NCBI GenBank assembly: GCA_002167845.2
Contig: NHBO02000052.1
Location: forward strand, 14,989-67,111
Reading direction: 5' to 3'
Length of the DNA: 52,123 nt
Source of the DNA: Phycisphaera sp. TMED9
GTDB lineage: Bacteria; Planctomycetota; Phycisphaerae; Phycisphaerales; SM1A02
Position 1 is the stretch's first letter; every line of letters begins with the position of its first letter. The notes under the pieces were generated by a model. It saw only the letters and a list, made by a program, of their open reading frames with translations. It searched no databases and had not been told where the DNA came from. The translations under genes and the position numbers were made by a program. Shown piece by piece: positions 9,766 to 37,470 of the stretch.

Positions 9766-10041
9766 TCAGCCGCCGGAGACCGGGGGAAGCAGATCAAGCT
9801 GGTCACCGGAGGTGAGCGTGACGCTGGCGGTCACGAGGCGATCGTTGCAGGCAAAGGCGATGACATCGCGGAAACTCGCGAGTCCGGGGTGGATCGTGCT
9901 CGCATGATCGAAGACTTCCGCGACCGTCGAATCCGCAGGAACGCGAAGGGGCATCGAGTCGTCACCGACGATCTCGCGGAGTTGCGCATGAAGACGCAAG
10001 GTGACTTCGATGTCGGGCGTCACGGCACGGGGATCACTCAT
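9766..10041 (-). CDS. moaD: MoaD/ThiS-family sulfur carrier (molybdopterin synthase small subunit)
   Basis: This 91-residue beta-grasp protein ends in VSGG, the double-glycine tail that is thiocarboxylated to donate sulfur during molybdopterin synthesis. The pattern VTLRLHAQLREIVG at the front and LTSGDQLDLLPPVSGG at the end matches MoaD. ThiS is the alternative, but its ATG overlaps the moeA stop by 4 nt (ATGA), which ties it to molybdenum cofactor synthesis. No moaE is visible here. Confidence 0.88.
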   Translation of the reverse strand: MSDPRAVTPDIEVTLRLHAQLREIVGDDSMPLRVPADSTVAEVFDHASTIHPGLASFRDVIAFACNDRLVTASVTLTSGDQLDLLPPVSGG

Positions 10042-11339
10042 CGGACGGTCTCGTTCCCGGGATCGCCCATGTCATGATGAGGAAGAAAGTCGATCAACGT
10101 CCCGGCGGGAAGTTCCTGGTCGCCCGGGTCGAGTCTGGCGAGTCCGTCGGTTCCCGCGAGGTGAGGCAGGTCTCCCGAACCCTGCCAGGTCGGGATGCGG
10201 ACCCCCGGGCGTCCGGCTTGATCCATGGCGATCGCCGCCGGCCGGAAGGCGGGTCTCTTCGGATTGGGGCGAACCGGATCGATGAGGGGGAGCCGCCAGC
10301 GCCCGCGCCTGGGATCAAGACCGAGTGCCCCGCGAATCCACGCTCGAATGAAGATGTGGGTGCAGGCGAAGGCGGAGACCGGGTTTCCCGGTAGTCCCAC
10401 GGCGATCGTCGTCCGATCGGGTGATTGCCAGAGCGAGAAGGGGCGGCCGGGCTGCATTCGAACGCCTCGGATCAACGCCGACCAACCTCGGTGCTGCCAA
10501 TGGGCGGGGACGAGGTCGAGCACGCCCGCGCTCACGCCTCCGACCGTGACCACGAGGTCGCTCGACGCGGCGGCCGCATCGAGCGCCGCCGCGGTGACGT
10601 GCGGATCGTCGTCGGCGTGCATCGGAGGGGAGAGGATGGCGCCGAAGGTCGATCGGTCGGTCAGGAGCGACGCGAGGAGCGAACCGTTCGAGTTTCGAAT
10701 TCGAACCGCGTCTTCCGGACCGTCGAGCGGGTCATCGATCGGCCGGACCTCGTCGCCCGTGGTGACGAGGGAGATCCGGGGACGCGAGCGGACCATGACC
10801 GAGCCCTCGCCGATGGCGGCGCCCGCCGCGACCGCGATGCCTCGGGCGATGTGGTCGATGCGGGTGCCGGCGGGGAGAAGAACGTCGCCGGCCCGGGCGT
10901 CCGCGGACTTCGGGTGAATGTTCCGACCGGGGCGCACCTCGTCCAGGCGGATGGTCAACGGGTCGCTTCGGTCGGTCGTTTCGTGTTCGACCACGGCGTC
11001 GAGGTCGTGCGGAACCGCGGCGCCGGTCGCGATCGCGACACAAGACGCCTCGGGGACCATGGCCGGCGGGGGGCTTCCGGCGGGAACGGAGCCGACCACC
11101 GGCAGCGTGAGTTTCGACTCCCGGGCGCGGATCGCGTATCCGTCCATCGTCGCCCGATCGAACGGGGGATGGTCGCGATCCGCGAGGACCGGCGTCGCCA
11201 GAATCGCACCAAGGATCGAATCGTCTCGAATGTCCGCCTTCACTGGTGGACGGTCGGCCACCACATCAGCGGTGGCGATGAGTCGGTCGAGTGCGGCCTC
11301 GACTTCGAGGGGCGGTTGCGAGGATGGGTCGACGGTCAC
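10038..11339 (-). CDS. moeA: Molybdopterin molybdenumtransferase MoeA
   Basis: MoeA inserts molybdate into adenylylated molybdopterin. The 433-residue protein shows the family signatures: HPPFDRATMDGYAI near residue 57, RPRISLVTTGDEV and RNSNG in the MogA-like domain, VTVGGVSAG, and GLPGNPVSAFACTHIF near 330. The C-terminal domain IV is present. The start is GTG (MTVDPSS), overlapping the stop of the upstream hydrolase as GTGA, and its own stop overlaps moaD as ATGA. Translation of the three genes is likely coupled. The rest of the cofactor pathway (moaA, moaC, moaE) is not in this window. Confidence 0.95.
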   Translation of the reverse strand: MTVDPSSQPPLEVEAALDRLIATADVVADRPPVKADIRDDSILGAILATPVLADRDHPPFDRATMDGYAIRARESKLTLPVVGSVPAGSPPPAMVPEASCVAIATGAAVPHDLDAVVEHETTDRSDPLTIRLDEVRPGRNIHPKSADARAGDVLLPAGTRIDHIARGIAVAAGAAIGEGSVMVRSRPRISLVTTGDEVRPIDDPLDGPEDAVRIRNSNGSLLASLLTDRSTFGAILSPPMHADDDPHVTAAALDAAAASSDLVVTVGGVSAGVLDLVPAHWQHRGWSALIRGVRMQPGRPFSLWQSPDRTTIAVGLPGNPVSAFACTHIFIRAWIRGALGLDPRRGRWRLPLIDPVRPNPKRPAFRPAAIAMDQAGRPGVRIPTWQGSGDLPHLAGTDGLARLDPGDQELPAGTLIDFLPHHDMGDPGNETVR

Positions 11340-12082
11340 CGGCGTTCATCCTCGAGGAAGGAGAGGATTCCGTCGATGGCGGTCTCGCGGCAGGGATCGA
11401 GATCGTGCCCGGCGAACGCGACTTCGAGTCGAGCCGTCCGCAGGCCACCGGCCGCGAGCGAAGCCCTCCAACCGATGGCGTCGGCGGGCGGAACCACGGT
11501 GTCGGCTGCGCCGTTGACCACCAATGCTCGATCGGCGACCGCGGCGCCGAGTTGCATGGGATTCTTCGTCCCGAGCTCCGCGGCGATCATCGGCGAAACC
11601 CCGAGCGAATCGGCGAGCGTCAGTTCGAGACGTTCCGGTCGATTGCCGTAGGTCTCGAGGATCGGAGGCGACACGAGCACGAAGGCCGCGGCGCCGATTC
11701 CGGAGCCGGCCACCGCCAGCAGTGGCGCGGTGGCGGAGAGGCCGATCACCACCAGCGGCATGCCCGGAAAATGCTCGTTCGTTCTGGCCAGCAGTTCGCG
11801 GGTCGCGTCGATGCAGCCATTCGCATCTCGCGCGGCATCGAATCGTTCGGGTCTGACCACCGGTCGACCGGACTCCACCAGCGCATCGCCCAGTTCATCA
11901 CCGAAATCAAGGAGTTGGCGAGCGGCGGGAAGTTCGACTTCGATTCCGAAGACGGCATCGCCAGCCAGAATCACCACCACCTGTCCATCGAGTCGGGACG
12001 GCGTTCGGATCTTGGCCGATCGGAGCGAACCGAAGGCTGGATACTCGATCTGTTCGACCCGAGGTGTGACGGCGGAGCCCAT
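11336..12082 (-). CDS. Alpha/beta-hydrolase-like protein leading the moeA-moaD operon
   Basis: This 248-residue predicted alpha/beta hydrolase has three elements in the right order: a nucleophile-elbow-like VVIGLSATAP near residue 112, an acid turn VVNGAADTVVPP near 195, and a C-terminal His in AFAGHD near 230. The elbow reads G-L-S-A-T, not G-x-S-x-G, so catalysis is uncertain. No signal peptide is seen. It is translationally coupled to moeA, but no link to molybdenum metabolism is evident from its sequence. A TATCAT hexamer 6 nt before the ATG suggests that the operon promoter lies here. Confidence 0.75.
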   Translation of the reverse strand: MGSAVTPRVEQIEYPAFGSLRSAKIRTPSRLDGQVVVILAGDAVFGIEVELPAARQLLDFGDELGDALVESGRPVVRPERFDAARDANGCIDATRELLARTNEHFPGMPLVVIGLSATAPLLAVAGSGIGAAAFVLVSPPILETYGNRPERLELTLADSLGVSPMIAAELGTKNPMQLGAAVADRALVVNGAADTVVPPADAIGWRASLAAGGLRTARLEVAFAGHDLDPCRETAIDGILSFLEDERR

Positions 12083-12145: not shown

Positions 12146-12991
12146 TCAGCGGGGGTCGTAGCTCGAGTCGTCGTCGCTGAGGAAGCCGTTCCTCGGGAAG
12201 TCCGTGATCGTCTCGAGCAATCCCTGGGCCTCGTTCACGCCCTCGCAGGCGGTATCACAGCACTCGACGTGTCCGTCGAGGCAGACGAGATTGGTGCAGG
12301 AGCCGTGGCGGAAGGCCTGGGTTCCTCCGTGCACGAGGCCGAGATCGACTTCGACCGCGTTGGATGGCGCCCGCATGAACTTGTTCGCACCCGCGATCCA
12401 TCCGCCATCGCCGAACAGTGCCGTGGTGGATGGTCGTCGATGGGCGGCCGCCGGCACGCCGCGACGACAGTGATCCCATCCTTCGAGAAGACGGCCTTCG
12501 GAATCCAGCGTGGGGAATCTTCCTTCGGCGCCCACGTAGGTCGTGTTGTAGTTGTACCCCGTCGCGGGGTCGTCGCCGAAGTTGCTGGCCCCTCGGAAGT
12601 CCGGGCACTGGAAGACCCGGTCCTGATCGTCGAGATAGGTCCAGATCGGGCCCTTGTCGATCGTGCCATCCGCGCGATGATCGAAATCCCAGGAGGTGGT
12701 GCGGACGTCACCATCTTCCATCCGGTAGAGCACCGCCGCGGGATAGCCGCCTTGAGTCGCGAGGTATGCCTCGGCGGCAAGATGCAGTTGGCGAAGATTC
12801 GCTCGGCAGGCGGTGCTTCTGGACAGCATCGAAGCCGACACCAGACCGCGCGAGACCATGGCGAGCAGGGCGGCCGTGATGCCGACGACCACGATCGCTT
12901 CGGTCAGCGTGAATCCACGCGATCCACGCGATCCACGCGATCGAGCCGCTCGGCTTCGTGCGGTGGGAATGGAATTCGGTTCGATGATCAC
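12146..12991 (-). CDS. Prepilin-type H-X9-DG protein (type II pseudopilin-like)
   Basis: This 281-residue pseudopilin-like protein has a prepilin leader rich in Arg/Ser (RGSRGSRG) that ends at the cleavage motif G-FTLTEAIVVVG. A hydrophobic helix of about 20 residues follows, then a globular domain. Near the end, HGSCTNLVCLDGHV matches the planctomycete H-X9-DG motif: His, nine residues, then Asp-Gly. The C-terminus is Cys-rich. The start is a GTG that overlaps the upstream gene's TGA (GGGGTGATC), so the two are translationally coupled and share the cobalamin riboswitch. The frame is open further upstream but runs inside the neighbour. Three perfect 9-bp repeats encode the RGS units before the cleavage site. 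Role unknown; surface assembly or secretion is inferred. Confidence 0.88.
   Translation of the reverse strand: MIIEPNSIPTARSRAARSRGSRGSRGFTLTEAIVVVGITAALLAMVSRGLVSASMLSRSTACRANLRQLHLAAEAYLATQGGYPAAVLYRMEDGDVRTTSWDFDHRADGTIDKGPIWTYLDDQDRVFQCPDFRGASNFGDDPATGYNYNTTYVGAEGRFPTLDSEGRLLEGWDHCRRGVPAAAHRRPSTTALFGDGGWIAGANKFMRAPSNAVEVDLGLVHGGTQAFRHGSCTNLVCLDGHVECCDTACEGVNEAQGLLETITDFPRNGFLSDDDSSYDPR
12913..12939. repeat. Three tandem copies of a 9-bp unit in the pseudopilin leader
   Basis: The unit atccacgcg occurs three times without mismatch and encodes the RGS repeats directly before the prepilin cleavage site. Slippage would change leader length by three residues without a frameshift. Confidence 0.9.
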
Positions 12992-13926
12992 CCCGTCCAG
13001 TCCGCCAGAAGCAGGCCGAGATCGGGCCCGTTGACGATGAGGTCGCCGTCGAGATCCGCGGTGGCGTCGGTCGTGCCCCATGCGGCGAGCAGGAGTCCGA
13101 GGTCGATCCCGTTCACCAATCCGTCACCGTTGAGATCTCCGGGGAGCGACGTGTCGTCTGCCGCTGCGACGTCGGCGATCGCATCGATTTCGGGCGTGTA
13201 GTCGCTGCCGGTGTTGGTGATTCGGACGTGTCGGATCGCGCTGAGGCCGACGCTGGCGAGATCGACGCCGACGCCACCACCCGAGCCGTCGTACGTCTGG
13301 AGGAGTCCGTCGTAGTCGAGCCCGATGAGGCCGTTGGGGTGGCGGGAAGGATTCACCGGTTTCGTGAAGTCGGTGGGGAGTCGGCCGGGTTCCTCGGCGT
13401 AGGGTCCGGTGTCCTGCCACCCGAAGGTCGGGAAGCCGCCGTCCGCCATCACGTCTGGAATCACGACCCAGTCGCGTCCGTTCAGACTCACTTCGATCTG
13501 GCCGCCTTCTTCGTAGATGCCGCCGACCCTGCCCCAGGGAGCGTTGGTATCGACGCAGAACGAGTTGCCGAAGATCAGGAGATCGATTCCGAACGGATTG
13601 GCGGGGTCGTCGAGCACGAGATGATCAAAGGCCAGTTCGATGGAACCACCGATGCCCAGCGACACGACTTCCGATGCCAACCAGGCCGGTTGGAACGGGG
13701 TCACGGCGGCGGGGAAGAGGCTGCCGCCCGTGGTCCGGGTGGGCTCACCCAGCGCGGACTCGGGGGAGTCATAGCCGGGAACACCGCCGATGCCGGGATC
13801 GAAGTGGATGACTTCGACGGCAAAGGGGGAATCCGCGACGGTGGACGGCGTCAGCAGGATGAGCGAGGCGACGGCACCCCGGAGGAGGATCGTGCGGCGA
13901 GGGGGCTGGACGGAACGGGACGGCAT
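12988..13926 (-). CDS. Secreted dockerin-tailed protein under a cobalamin riboswitch
   Basis: This 312-residue secreted protein has a basic N-terminus and hydrophobic signal segment (MPSRSVQPPRR, then LLRGAVASLILL). The main domain (about 30-255) is beta-rich, with patterns such as GSIELAFDHLVLDDPANPFG, DLLIFGNSFCVD, QIEVSLNGRDWVVI and VGLSAIRHVRITN. I do not know a named family; it resembles bacterial cell-surface proteins. The C-terminus has two EF-hand-like dockerin repeats (GDLNGDGLVNGIDLGLLLAAW and DLDGDLIVNGPDLGLLLADW). GGAG eight nt before the ATG supports the start; the open frame upstream reads through the riboswitch. Regulation by B12 suggests a part in corrinoid capture, or replacement of a B12-dependent function; this is inference. 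Confidence 0.85.
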   Translation of the reverse strand: MPSRSVQPPRRTILLRGAVASLILLTPSTVADSPFAVEVIHFDPGIGGVPGYDSPESALGEPTRTTGGSLFPAAVTPFQPAWLASEVVSLGIGGSIELAFDHLVLDDPANPFGIDLLIFGNSFCVDTNAPWGRVGGIYEEGGQIEVSLNGRDWVVIPDVMADGGFPTFGWQDTGPYAEEPGRLPTDFTKPVNPSRHPNGLIGLDYDGLLQTYDGSGGGVGVDLASVGLSAIRHVRITNTGSDYTPEIDAIADVAAADDTSLPGDLNGDGLVNGIDLGLLLAAWGTTDATADLDGDLIVNGPDLGLLLADWTG

Positions 13927-13941
13927 CACGGAGACTCCGGA

Positions 13942-13988
13942 GGCCGGATTCGCGCCGGCCAGACGGAAGAGGGCCCGATCGCGTCGGG
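13942..13988 (-). promoter_or_regulatory. Candidate riboswitch expression platform (two hairpins)
   Basis: Between the B12 aptamer and the gene lie two small hairpins: gcccga/tcgggc (13972-13988) and ggccgg/ccggcc (13942-13960). The second abuts the CTCCGGAG that holds the ribosome site, so control of translation initiation is plausible. No T-run is seen, which argues against a terminator mechanism. Confidence 0.5.
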
Positions 13989-13998
13989 CACCAGTTCG

Positions 13999-14195
13999 AT
14001 CAGGCAGGTCTTCCGGCTCCGGGCGTATCACGAGTCTGCCTTCCCACAACGCCCTCAGGGGGCCTGCAGTGGCTCTCGACTCGCGAGATTCGGCTTCTTG
14101 CCCGAATCAAGCCCGTTACGGCGGCGCGTCCGCGGCGGCTTTGAACCGCCTTCCCTTCGAAGAAGCCTTGTGGCCAGTGGTATCCGGCCTGCTTC
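13999..14195 (-). ncRNA. Cobalamin (B12) riboswitch
   Basis: On the minus strand the conserved aptamer elements appear in order. A GCAGG strand (14188-14192) begins P1. Next come AAGGGAAGGCGGTTCAAAG and GCCGCCGTAACGGG, then AGAGCCACTG, GTGGGAAGGC, and finally the B12 box AGCCGGAAGACCTGCC (14003-14018), whose CCTGC closes P1. The spacing and element order match the AdoCbl/MeCbl riboswitch family. The first downstream gene on the same strand starts about 75 nt further on, at 13926, so the switch controls the secreted dockerin-tailed protein and the coupled pseudopilin. By family precedent cobalamin binding should reduce expression. Confidence 0.92.
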
Positions 14196-14234
14196 CTCGC
14201 CCGCGAAACGCCGCGGGGCCCGAAGTGCACGAGG

Positions 14235-14240
14235 AGTATA
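14235..14240 (-). promoter_or_regulatory. -10-like hexamer upstream of the B12 riboswitch
   Basis: TATACT on the minus strand lies about 40 nt before the aptamer begins, in the right place for the leader promoter. No good -35 is seen. Confidence 0.4.
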
Positions 14241-14642
14241 TCGGGCAATCGCCTCCGGGTTCCGTCCCACCCCGGAAGCCGGGGTCGCGTTGACACCCTT
14301 TCCTGCGGCCCGGTACCCTGCCCTCTCTACATTCGCTCCGGCGGAGGTGGAACGGTTCCCGGCTCGGCCGGGAAGACCACCCGATGCTTCCGCGTCGGCT
14401 CAGGATCGGTCGTCCGAAACGGGCGTCCGCTGCTCCAGTCCCTTCATCGGGACAGACTCGAGGGTTCGGCTTTCCCCGTTCGGGGATGGTCCGGCCTTCC
14501 GTCCCGTTCTTCGGTCGTCTTTTCACGACCGTATTCATGCACGGTCCATAGATGGACCACACGCCGCCGCGATCGGATCTCTTGATCCGTGAAACGGCAG
14601 ACCCCGCCCGCCGACTTCGGCGGACGATGGAGGATCGATTCG
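14241..14642. other. Intergenic region between the riboswitch and the HEAT-repeat gene
   Basis: No coding region is supported. On the plus strand TTGACA (14290-14295) and TACCCT (14314-14319) with an 18-nt spacer are a possible promoter for the downstream gene, which would then have a leader of about 320 nt. I recognise no known RNA fold in that leader. GGAGG at 14629-14633 is the ribosome site of the next gene. Confidence 0.4.
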
Positions 14643-34896: not shown

Positions 34897-35118
34897 GATG
34901 GGCGCCGACTTCGGTGGTGTCTGAGGCTTGATCTGGAGTCATCGAACTTGGTTCTTCCATCGGCTGGATCTCTCTTGCCACGCGATCATCCAACCGGCCC
35001 CCGGGTGCTCGAGCCCGGCATGACGCGGAATGACCGAAGTTGGAGGCGGTTTGGGCCAAACCGGGCGGATTTCGAACCCGGACGGCGATGGGTGTTTCCG
35101 ATCGGTCTCTCGAATCGC

Positions 35119-35124
35119 TACGCT
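35119..35124 (+). promoter_or_regulatory. -10-like hexamer for the transglutaminase-like gene
   Basis: TACGCT ends 6 nt before the ATG at 35131. This favours that start, although the frame is open for 204 further codons. Confidence 0.45.
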
Positions 35125-35130
35125 CGAGGC

Positions 35131-37470
35131 ATGAATCGCTCCCCGTTGGTCCAGCTTCTGGCGTTGGTCCTCGTGGCGGGCCTCCGAGCGGAGGTCGCGA
35201 CGGGGCAGGGGCCCGTTCGCCCGAACTCGGAGTATCTGGTCGTCGCGAGCGAGCGATGTCGAGCCACGGATGGTTGGCGGCAGGTCGTCGGGGCGTTGGC
35301 GGCGAAACATGATGCGGAGATGATCTTCTTCGCGGAGTCTCCGCTCGAGATCCTCCCGGAACTCCGACGACGATCACCTCGGATCATCGGGGTGGTGGCG
35401 ATGCCGGACGAGGCCGGTCGAGATCGAGTCGGTTCGTTGAACAGGCTCTTTCGCCGAATCAACGATGATCCATGGCTGGATGTTCGCTGGGGTCTGGTGA
35501 CCGGAGCCGAGTGGGCGGATGCGATGGAAGTCGTTCGAACCGCCTCACCGCTGGTCATCTCGAGACTGCTCTCGAACACGCCCGTACCGTTTCAAGACGT
35601 CGCCGACGGAGTCTGGTTCGACGAGGGCGTCGCGGGTCGCAGGATGGAACGTTCGGGGGGAGGCGATCCTCGCGAGATTCTGGGTGATCGGGAGATCGCC
35701 GACGACTTCGCGGCGGCGTTCAACGATGCGCCGCCCGATCTTCTGGTGACCAGTGGGCGCACCAATGAAGAACGCTGGATGCTCGGGTATCTCTTCGACG
35801 GCGGTCGGGTGGTCGTGGGCGCGGAGGGTGATCTTCGAGCCCGCCGACTCGATGGGACGGAGATCCCCCTTCGAAATCCGGGTCCGATGGCGATGCTCGG
35901 TGCGGGAAGCTGCCTGCTCGGATTCGTGCCGAATGACGGCGTGCTTCCGCTCGCCTTCATCCACGACGCCGGCGCGAGACAGATCGTCGGATACGCATCC
36001 ACGACCTGGCACGGCGCGGGAGGATGGGATGTCTTCCGCCGTTTTCTCGAGGAACCAGGCCGATGGACGTTGGCGGAGTCGACCTGGATCGCCCAGCAGG
36101 AGTTGATCAGACGATTCCGCGATGAGTTCCCGGGAGTCGAGGAGTTCAGCACCGAAGGGTTCGGCGAACGGGAGGTGCCGGAGTTCCAATTCGCGATTTC
36201 CGAGGCCACCGGGATGCCCAGGACCGACCCGCGATTCAAGGATCTCGCCGGATATCTCTGGGATCGCGATGCCATCGTTCTTCTCGGCGATCCGGAATGG
36301 TCGGTTCGGATGCCGGACGGCCCGCTTCCCTGGAGCAGCGAGGTCCGGCGGAGCGGTGATCGTCTCGTGATCGATCTCGTGGTGAACCTCGACTTGAGCG
36401 AGCGTGCGACCCCCGTGGTGATTCTTGAAGATCGCATTGCGGGGAGTGAGGTGCTCCGCGGGAAGGAACTCGATCCGGTGGTCACGCCTGATCTCGTCTT
36501 CCTCCCCGGATTGCGAGGCTCCGCGGCTGGAACGAGACATCAGATCGAATTGATCGCCCCGGTCGCGAACTTGAAGGAGGAGATCGTGCCACCGGCGCCG
36601 GAAGCTGTGAACGCGGCGCTTTCCGGACATCTCGAGTCGGATCATCCGAAGCTTCGAGTGGCGATCGAGACATCGAAGGCGAATGCGGGCGAGATCGTCG
36701 CTGCGATTCGGGGCGTTCCGGCGGAACATCGCCAGGACATGGCATTCCTGATCTCGAACATGCCGGCCGGTGACCTTCGGACGATGCCCGCAACAGTTCT
36801 CTTGGAGAACGTGGCGGCCGCGCACGCCTCATTCGCGGCCTCGCCGTGGTCGGCTGGTGTTCCACGCGATGTATTCCGCGAAGCGGTGCTTCCCTACGCC
36901 CACATCAACGAACGTCGGGATGACTGGCGTGGCGACTTCACCCGTCGATTCCGTGACATCGCGCACGAGGAGGAATCTCAGGCGGCGGCGGTGCGGTTGT
37001 TGAATCAAATGGTGTACGAGACCTTCGACGTCGTCTTTGATTCCAACAAGCGGCTGAAGAACGAACAGAGCCCGTATCAGACCATCGATCAGAACTGCGC
37101 CAGTTGCACCGGGCTTTCGATCCTCCTCGCGAACGCGTGTCGGGCCGCGGGCATTCCGGCCCGCATTGCAGGCATTCCGGAATGGCCGACGGGAGACAAT
37201 CACACCTGGGTGGAGGTGTACGATCCGATCGATCAGCAGTGGCATTGGATCGAGGCGTTCGGTGGCGGGGAATACGACGAGGGTTGGTGGGTCGAGAAGG
37301 TTCGCGGGATCGCGAGTGAGGATTCCGCCGAACCCCGGTACCGGATCTGGGCCGCATCCTGGTCACGACCGGCCGGGGTCCCGGACCGATTCCCACTCTG
37401 GTGGTTGACGGATCGGGACGACCCCGTCCCCGGGATCGATCGGACGAAGGACTACGCGCGCCGGCGTTGA
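35131..37470 (+). CDS. Exported protein with C-terminal transglutaminase-like domain
   Basis: A 779-residue protein with a signal peptide (1-26, LVQLLALVLVAGLRAEVATG). The N-terminal 200 residues (YLVVASERCRATDGWRQVV, then NDDPWLDVRWGLVTG) have the look of caspase/gingipain-fold segments; this is tentative. The middle part is unassigned and beta-rich. The C-terminal transglutaminase-like domain shows Cys659 in CASCTGLSILLANACRAAGI, His691 in NHTWVEVYDP, and a WHWIEAFGGGEYDEGWW segment where the third catalytic position appears to be Glu. This form is shared with exported Bacteroidetes and planctomycete proteins. Peptidase or cross-linking activity is possible; substrate unknown. It stands alone, with the GNAT gene convergent. 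Confidence 0.83.
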   Translation: MNRSPLVQLLALVLVAGLRAEVATGQGPVRPNSEYLVVASERCRATDGWRQVVGALAAKHDAEMIFFAESPLEILPELRRRSPRIIGVVAMPDEAGRDRVGSLNRLFRRINDDPWLDVRWGLVTGAEWADAMEVVRTASPLVISRLLSNTPVPFQDVADGVWFDEGVAGRRMERSGGGDPREILGDREIADDFAAAFNDAPPDLLVTSGRTNEERWMLGYLFDGGRVVVGAEGDLRARRLDGTEIPLRNPGPMAMLGAGSCLLGFVPNDGVLPLAFIHDAGARQIVGYASTTWHGAGGWDVFRRFLEEPGRWTLAESTWIAQQELIRRFRDEFPGVEEFSTEGFGEREVPEFQFAISEATGMPRTDPRFKDLAGYLWDRDAIVLLGDPEWSVRMPDGPLPWSSEVRRSGDRLVIDLVVNLDLSERATPVVILEDRIAGSEVLRGKELDPVVTPDLVFLPGLRGSAAGTRHQIELIAPVANLKEEIVPPAPEAVNAALSGHLESDHPKLRVAIETSKANAGEIVAAIRGVPAEHRQDMAFLISNMPAGDLRTMPATVLLENVAAAHASFAASPWSAGVPRDVFREAVLPYAHINERRDDWRGDFTRRFRDIAHEEESQAAAVRLLNQMVYETFDVVFDSNKRLKNEQSPYQTIDQNCASCTGLSILLANACRAAGIPARIAGIPEWPTGDNHTWVEVYDPIDQQWHWIEAFGGGEYDEGWWVEKVRGIASEDSAEPRYRIWAASWSRPAGVPDRFPLWWLTDRDDPVPGIDRTKDYARRR

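Follow-up and report, generated by a model that had tools for sequence, protein, structure and literature searches.

A cobalamin riboswitch, a BtuH-like secreted protein and a pseudopilin: a probable operon for extracellular vitamin B12 capture in Planctomycetota

The riboswitch-led operon

The window, by which we mean the whole stretch of DNA analysed here, comprises 52,123 nt from Phycisphaera sp. TMED9 (Planctomycetota; Phycisphaerae; Phycisphaerales; SM1A02; assembly GCA_002167845.2, contig NHBO02000052.1, positions 14,989-67,111 of the forward strand). At 13986-14207 of its minus strand, on which the entire operon with its leader is encoded, lies a cobalamin riboswitch aptamer (RF00174) that cmscan scores at 61.3 bits (gathering threshold 31.5) and aligns to the full model (1-189), with E-values of 8e-13 for the whole window and 6e-15 when the search is confined to 13900-14300. 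The B12 box within it, AGCCGGAAGACCTGCC, occupies 14003-14018 (minus strand) as judged by sequence reading and by alignment to the Rfam consensus. RNA folding of the stretch that separates the aptamer from the start codon (13927-13985, minus strand) predicts a putative expression platform made up of a hairpin, GCCCGA-N5-TCGGGC, and a GGAG Shine-Dalgarno-like site. This region folds better than its shuffled versions (z -2.2) and the GGAG site is paired in the predicted fold, which would be in keeping with translational control; on the reading favoured here, AdoCbl would repress the operon.

The first gene (12988-13926, minus strand) opens with an ATG at 13926 (alternatively a GTG at 13929), about 60 nt 3' of the aptamer, and ends at 12988. 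Its product, a secreted protein of 312 aa with a hydrophobic N-terminal signal, carries a BtuH-like domain predicted by homology to bind B12 (residues 30-256; 13159-13839, minus strand), followed by a dockerin type I-like calcium-repeat tail (residues 262-306; 13009-13143, minus strand). With 22.8 bits the tail falls just below the Pfam cut-off for Dockerin_1 (PF00404; 22.9 bits), and a match to it is found in 36 of 41 orthologues. In the orthologue of a single-contig genome (L064, 8835-9728, plus strand), a PAP-type, PEP-CTERM-like sorting tail replaces the dockerin repeats, which suggests that these surface-retention tails are exchangeable. Single-sequence searches of Pfam, NCBIfam and the PDB with the window protein return dockerin/EF-hand repeats and nothing else, and the core domain matches no Pfam family when the window protein and 41 orthologues are searched. 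Since the dockerin repeats mask the real relation of the protein, trimming of the tail is needed.

The second gene (12146-12991, minus strand) codes for a type IV pilin-like protein, or pseudopilin, whose GTG start (12991-12989) overlaps the TGA stop of the BtuH-like gene, an overlap that four further species in the genus retain. Its prepilin motif (N_methyl, PF07963) scores 21.5 bits with a cut-off of 21.2, and its DUF1559 score of 16.7 bits stays below the cut-off of that family. Sequence reading places an H-X9-DG motif (H-GSCTNLVCL-DG) at 12272-12307 (minus strand), and alignment A2 reveals a conserved C-terminal signature, NGFLSDDDSSYDPR, at 12149-12190 (minus strand), in which N268, G269, F270, L271, P280 and R281 are invariant. 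Pseudopilin orthologues occur at 75 of the 82 loci that hold a BtuH-like gene. The source genome and 13 of 15 sampled family relatives each have a single full-length match (E 1e-88 to 1e-129), adjoining the BtuH-like gene, and the other pilins of these genomes match at about 1e-15 over the N-terminus only; the two relatives without a match (G128 and G129) have assemblies that contain no BtuH-like gene either. One full-length match per genome, set against weak N-terminal paralogues, argues for a dedicated partner rather than just any pilin, and this dedicated, conserved partner may play a part in B12 handling.

An earlier sequence-only reading of this DNA had anticipated much of the above. Its B12 riboswitch is confirmed by the covariance search, its B12 box is correct to the nucleotide, and both the exported first gene with dockerin-like repeats and the H-X9-DG pseudopilin translated from a GTG on the stop of that gene are as described. 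While the aptamer itself thus stood, its proposed limits (13999-14195) did not, the element being slightly longer.

Conservation of the linkage and its surroundings

The riboswitch-gene pair, which the sequence-only reading had singled out for a comparative search in relatives, is conserved both family-wide and across the phylum. A match to the secreted protein at E <= 0.001, in some cases to the dockerin tail only, is present in all 181 family genomes, with a best match of E < 1e-60 in most of them, and 155 of the 181 possess a cobalamin riboswitch above the cut-off. Among the best 150 RF00174 hits from these genomes, 129 lie before a BtuH-like orthologue and 17 before a second secreted family (see below); three sit at contig ends and one (L087) is an exception. 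Coordinates placed 115 of the 129 directly upstream of the BtuH-like gene (gap 40-883 nt, median 127), and inspection of the remaining 35 hits added 14 more, along with the 17 companion cases, the contig ends and the exception. Hence 146 of the 147 decidable riboswitches among the best 150 precede one of two exported proteins. Of 27 distant loci drawn from further families and from other classes in the phylum, 26 have RF00174 upstream on the same strand, the sole locus without it (L216) being located at a contig end. As for the exception (L087, 11152-11319, minus strand; 90 bits), it is flanked on one side by a DUF4430 gene and on the other by an operon for a VWA protein and ExbB/ExbD-like proteins, which may form a B12-controlled energy system of the TonB type.

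Several neighbours of the operon recur. Upstream of the riboswitch and divergent from it, the window encodes a secreted HEAT-repeat protein (PF13646; 14643-16847, plus strand) that occupies the same place throughout the family and also in L224 and L235, which represent two genomes from a different family in the order; it may belong to the B12 system. After the operon and on the same strand (9766-12082, minus strand) follow an uncharacterised gene of 248 aa and then MoeA-like and MoaD-like genes, a molybdopterin pair found at the same place in many of the family's genera. Loci in another family of the order that combine a propeller, a BtuH-like domain and a pilin have a small BFD-like [2Fe-2S] protein after the pilin (L223, 4509-4778; L233, 6716-6943; L247, 6242-6502). 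In other classes of the phylum, riboswitch-led BtuH-like genes are followed by putative beta-propeller proteins (L225 and L228, the latter with no Pfam match), possibly counterparts of BtuG. Identification as BtuG was rejected for the beta-propeller-like protein that lies beside BtuH in some relatives, its profile matching hydrazine synthase beta and S-layer YVTN propellers instead.

The second riboswitch-controlled family consists of small exported proteins, some 190 aa long and bearing a PEP-CTERM-like tail, and its genes also occur inside the BtuH-type operons of relatives (L213, L215, L217, L218, L231). The source genome has an orthologue on contig C49 (G000, 34970-35476; corresponding to L276, 7971-8477, and to L002 from about 1877), preceded by an AdoCbl riboswitch (RF01482) that is sub-threshold at 43.6 bits (gathering score 50; E 2.5e-6) and probably controls this gene as in many relatives. 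In a family model (pLDDT 88) the 16 best PDB matches are confined to transcobalamin, intrinsic factor and two chains of 3U7Z, presumably a DUF4430 protein, with probabilities of 0.96-1.00 and a TM-score on target of 0.70-0.76 for single-domain entries; the E-values are weak, at 0.013 and up. At the level of sequence no similarity to transcobalamin is detected, so the predicted likeness to the transcobalamin beta domain is one of fold only.

Relationship to the BtuH family

To reach known structures we relied on a profile (A6) of 23 diverse planctomycete domains including that of the window. When searched against the PDB with hmmsearch, it matches residues 392-660 of BtuG1 (8blw_B; E 7.4e-17) and residues 222-491 of BtuH2 (7biz_A; E 4.1e-9); the BtuH domain of BtuG1 and BtuH2 are its sole above-chance PDB matches, the next having an E-value of 0.36. 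That BtuG1 has a C-terminal BtuH domain was reported previously (PMC10404256). A trimmed profile of close orthologues alone (A4) fails to reach BtuH in the PDB, and the homology is demonstrable only when phylum intermediates are added to the profile. Across the phylum, homologues of graded similarity were found in 69 of 392 genomes. They include a protein of 715 aa from the same order (L247), in which a propeller-like N-terminus is joined to a BtuH-like domain and whose sequence on its own matches BtuG1 (1.3e-14) and BtuH2 (7.1e-8), as well as a relative (L236) that combines PKD and BtuH, which is the architecture of BtuH2. In an AlphaFold2 model of the secreted protein (pLDDT 91), the best PDB neighbour by Foldseek is again BtuG1 (8blw_B; E 1.2e-6, probability 1.00), with a poor superposition (TM 0.32, rmsd 15), and the matches ranked below it are CBM32/discoidin-like folds.

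Residues through which BtuH2 contacts B12 (Gln333, Asn399, His476, Tyr510, Trp511, Trp577) were compared among the planctomycete domains. All 23 aligned domains keep the equivalent of Asn399, the residue with which BtuH2 touches the phosphate of B12 (PMC8941943). Gln333 is retained solely in the group nearest BtuH and not in the subgroup of the window, from which the BtuH2 loop with His476, Tyr510 and Trp511 is absent, too. In our view, the profile matches, the PKD and propeller architectures and the invariant Asn make homology to BtuH well supported, so that the secreted protein is a divergent member of this family and likely binds cobalamin; since neither Gln333 nor the loop is kept, its affinity for cobalamin, and even the identity of its ligand, are presumptive. 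Hence the view of the sequence-only reading, that the genes behind the riboswitch are not known cobalamin proteins, no longer holds for the secreted protein, which the profile with intermediates assigns to the BtuH family. Membership in DUF4465/BtuJ was considered and rejected, there being no Pfam DUF4465 match in 41 orthologues at E <= 10.

Probable B12 capture, rival readings and known systems

CbiC and CobS were each detected in 0 of 26 genomes (the source genome and 25 relatives), in which positive controls were found, and MetE-type domains in none of eight genus members including the source organism, whose genome does encode MetH and a B12-binding/MeaB protein. Lack of CbiC, CobS and MetE in the presence of MetH points to cobalamin auxotrophy and hence a need for import, and the lineage seems to consist of B12 auxotrophs. 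Sister species have BtuF/BtuC-type genes (Peripla_BP_2 beside FecCD and an ATPase) that lie outside the riboswitch regulon; a search of the source genome, which is 94.5 percent complete, revealed no BtuFCD. TonB-dependent receptors are marked by Plug domains. Such domains are absent from the source genome and from six of the seven other genus members, the sole match in the genus being a large protein with carboxypeptidase repeats that is encoded in an ExbB-like cluster. Plug receptors do occur in certain genomes of the wider order, and in two of these (G247, G456) none is on the contig of the BtuH-like gene. So B12 import is needed, yet most sampled family genomes are without Plug, which makes the crossing of the outer membrane a testable matter with a two-gene candidate at hand.

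Since this arrangement is kept throughout a lineage of apparent auxotrophs, most of them without the customary transporters for B12 in the outer membrane, the operon probably catches B12, and we put the probability that it is an AdoCbl-repressed system for extracellular vitamin B12 capture at roughly 0.83. In this model, low intracellular cobalamin would permit expression through the riboswitch, and the BtuH-like protein would be secreted, held at the surface and bind cobamides outside the cell, where the dedicated pilin-like subunit most likely anchors, displays or moves it. After a presumed step across the outer membrane, captured B12 may be handed to a cytoplasmic-membrane transporter of the BtuFCD type, as encoded by sister species, and would eventually supply MetH and a B12-dependent acyl-CoA mutase. 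The corrinoid-scavenging surface system proposed by the sequence-only reading thus gains strong support from the phylum-wide linkage, BtuH homology and MetH without CbiC, CobS or MetE; its other option, an alternative to a B12-dependent surface process, found none.

How capture might proceed beyond the surface invites a bolder scenario, modelled on DNA-uptake pili, in which B12 import across the outer membrane is TonB-independent: a dedicated pseudopilus would carry or thread the B12-loaded BtuH-like binder, assisted by the transcobalamin-beta-like second binder, and so bring cobalamin across or to the outer membrane. The scarcity of Plug in the genus, where the one hit is a carboxypeptidase-repeat receptor, the 1:1 partnership of pilin and BtuH-like gene and the fact that no riboswitch-controlled transporter is seen in the family would all fit. 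However, uncharacterised pilin-like DUF1559 proteins are numerous in planctomycetes, no secretin, ATPase or importer is tied to the operon, and other routes through the outer membrane are conceivable, so to our minds this scenario is tentative and on balance doubtful. Still less probable is that the secreted protein binds no B12 at all and is a carbohydrate- or surface-binding beta-sandwich that B12 tunes for, say, attachment to B12-producing algae or bacteria. The CBM32/discoidin-like folds among the lower Foldseek matches, dockerin and PEP-CTERM tails typical of planctomycete surface proteins and the missing aromatic B12 loop of BtuH2 would suit such a role, but the sequence-profile matches are specific to BtuH with none to CBMs, Asn399 is invariant and the riboswitch linkage reaches as far as the PKD-BtuH and propeller plus BtuH arrangements. 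Finally, one might suppose that the aptamer is real and its downstream genes are chance neighbours, with the regulated gene elsewhere. Lack of Pfam annotation is all that speaks for this, and we consider it refuted, with hardly any residual likelihood, by conservation of the linkage: 129 plus 17 of 147 decidable riboswitches precede two secreted families and the BtuH-type linkage is phylum-wide.

The capture system that we favour appears to be new in several respects. Searchable literature holds no earlier description of a planctomycete BtuH or of a cobalamin riboswitch with dockerin, and in the parts of the literature accessible to us on cobalamin riboswitches with PEP-CTERM or with Planctomycetes transporters we found no description of the system. 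As far as searchable papers show, no one has described the planctomycete BtuH subgroup with its pilin partner and tails, its near-monopoly among B12-regulated genes or the companion of transcobalamin-like fold. Previous descriptions of BtuH come from gut Bacteroidetes, supplemented by a few homologues in Firmicutes. In the widespread planctomycete lineage studied here, whose sampled members are without CbiC and CobS, almost all of the B12 riboswitch regulon centres on a divergent branch of this family.

The closest known counterparts are BtuH2 (BT_1956; PDB 7BIZ) and BtuG1, or BtuGH (BT_1490; PDB 8BLW), of Bacteroides thetaiotaomicron (PMC8941943, PMC10404256, PMC12751083). Like these, the window protein is an exported surface protein behind a cobalamin riboswitch and, by profile, their homologue; the planctomycete domains share with BtuH2 the invariant Asn at the B12 phosphate position, and their PKD-fused and propeller-fused relatives recall the BtuH architectures of Bacteroides. 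In contrast to BtuH2 and BtuG1, the subgroup of the window is very divergent and without the His476/Tyr510/Trp511 loop, and the window protein is dockerin-tailed (PEP-CTERM-tailed in some orthologues) and no lipoprotein. Unlike most BtuH operons of gut Bacteroidetes, that of the window has no BtuB, BtuG or BtuFCD and instead a pseudopilin partner and, often, MoeA/MoaD neighbours, in genomes that, different again from those with Bacteroides BtuH, are mostly without a TonB-dependent Plug domain. BtuJ1 and BtuJ2 (DUF4465), secreted beta-rich B12 scavengers from riboswitch-controlled loci that have been reported from the PVC group as well (PMC13398666, PMC12751083), would follow the same working principle but belong to a different family. 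The pseudopilin resembles type IV pilins and DUF1559 (SBP_bac_10) pseudopilins in its prepilin N-terminus and H-X9-DG motif, and differs from them as a distinct orthologous group of B12 operons with the C-terminal signature NGFLSDDD-x2-YDPR. The companion, lastly, would have a fold in common with the beta domain of transcobalamin and intrinsic factor and with DUF4430 (5NO0, 2BB6, 2PMV, 3U7Z), from which it differs in being secreted by bacteria and in lacking the alpha domain; under the same control as the BtuH-like gene, it may represent a bacterial parallel to the B12 carriers of animals.
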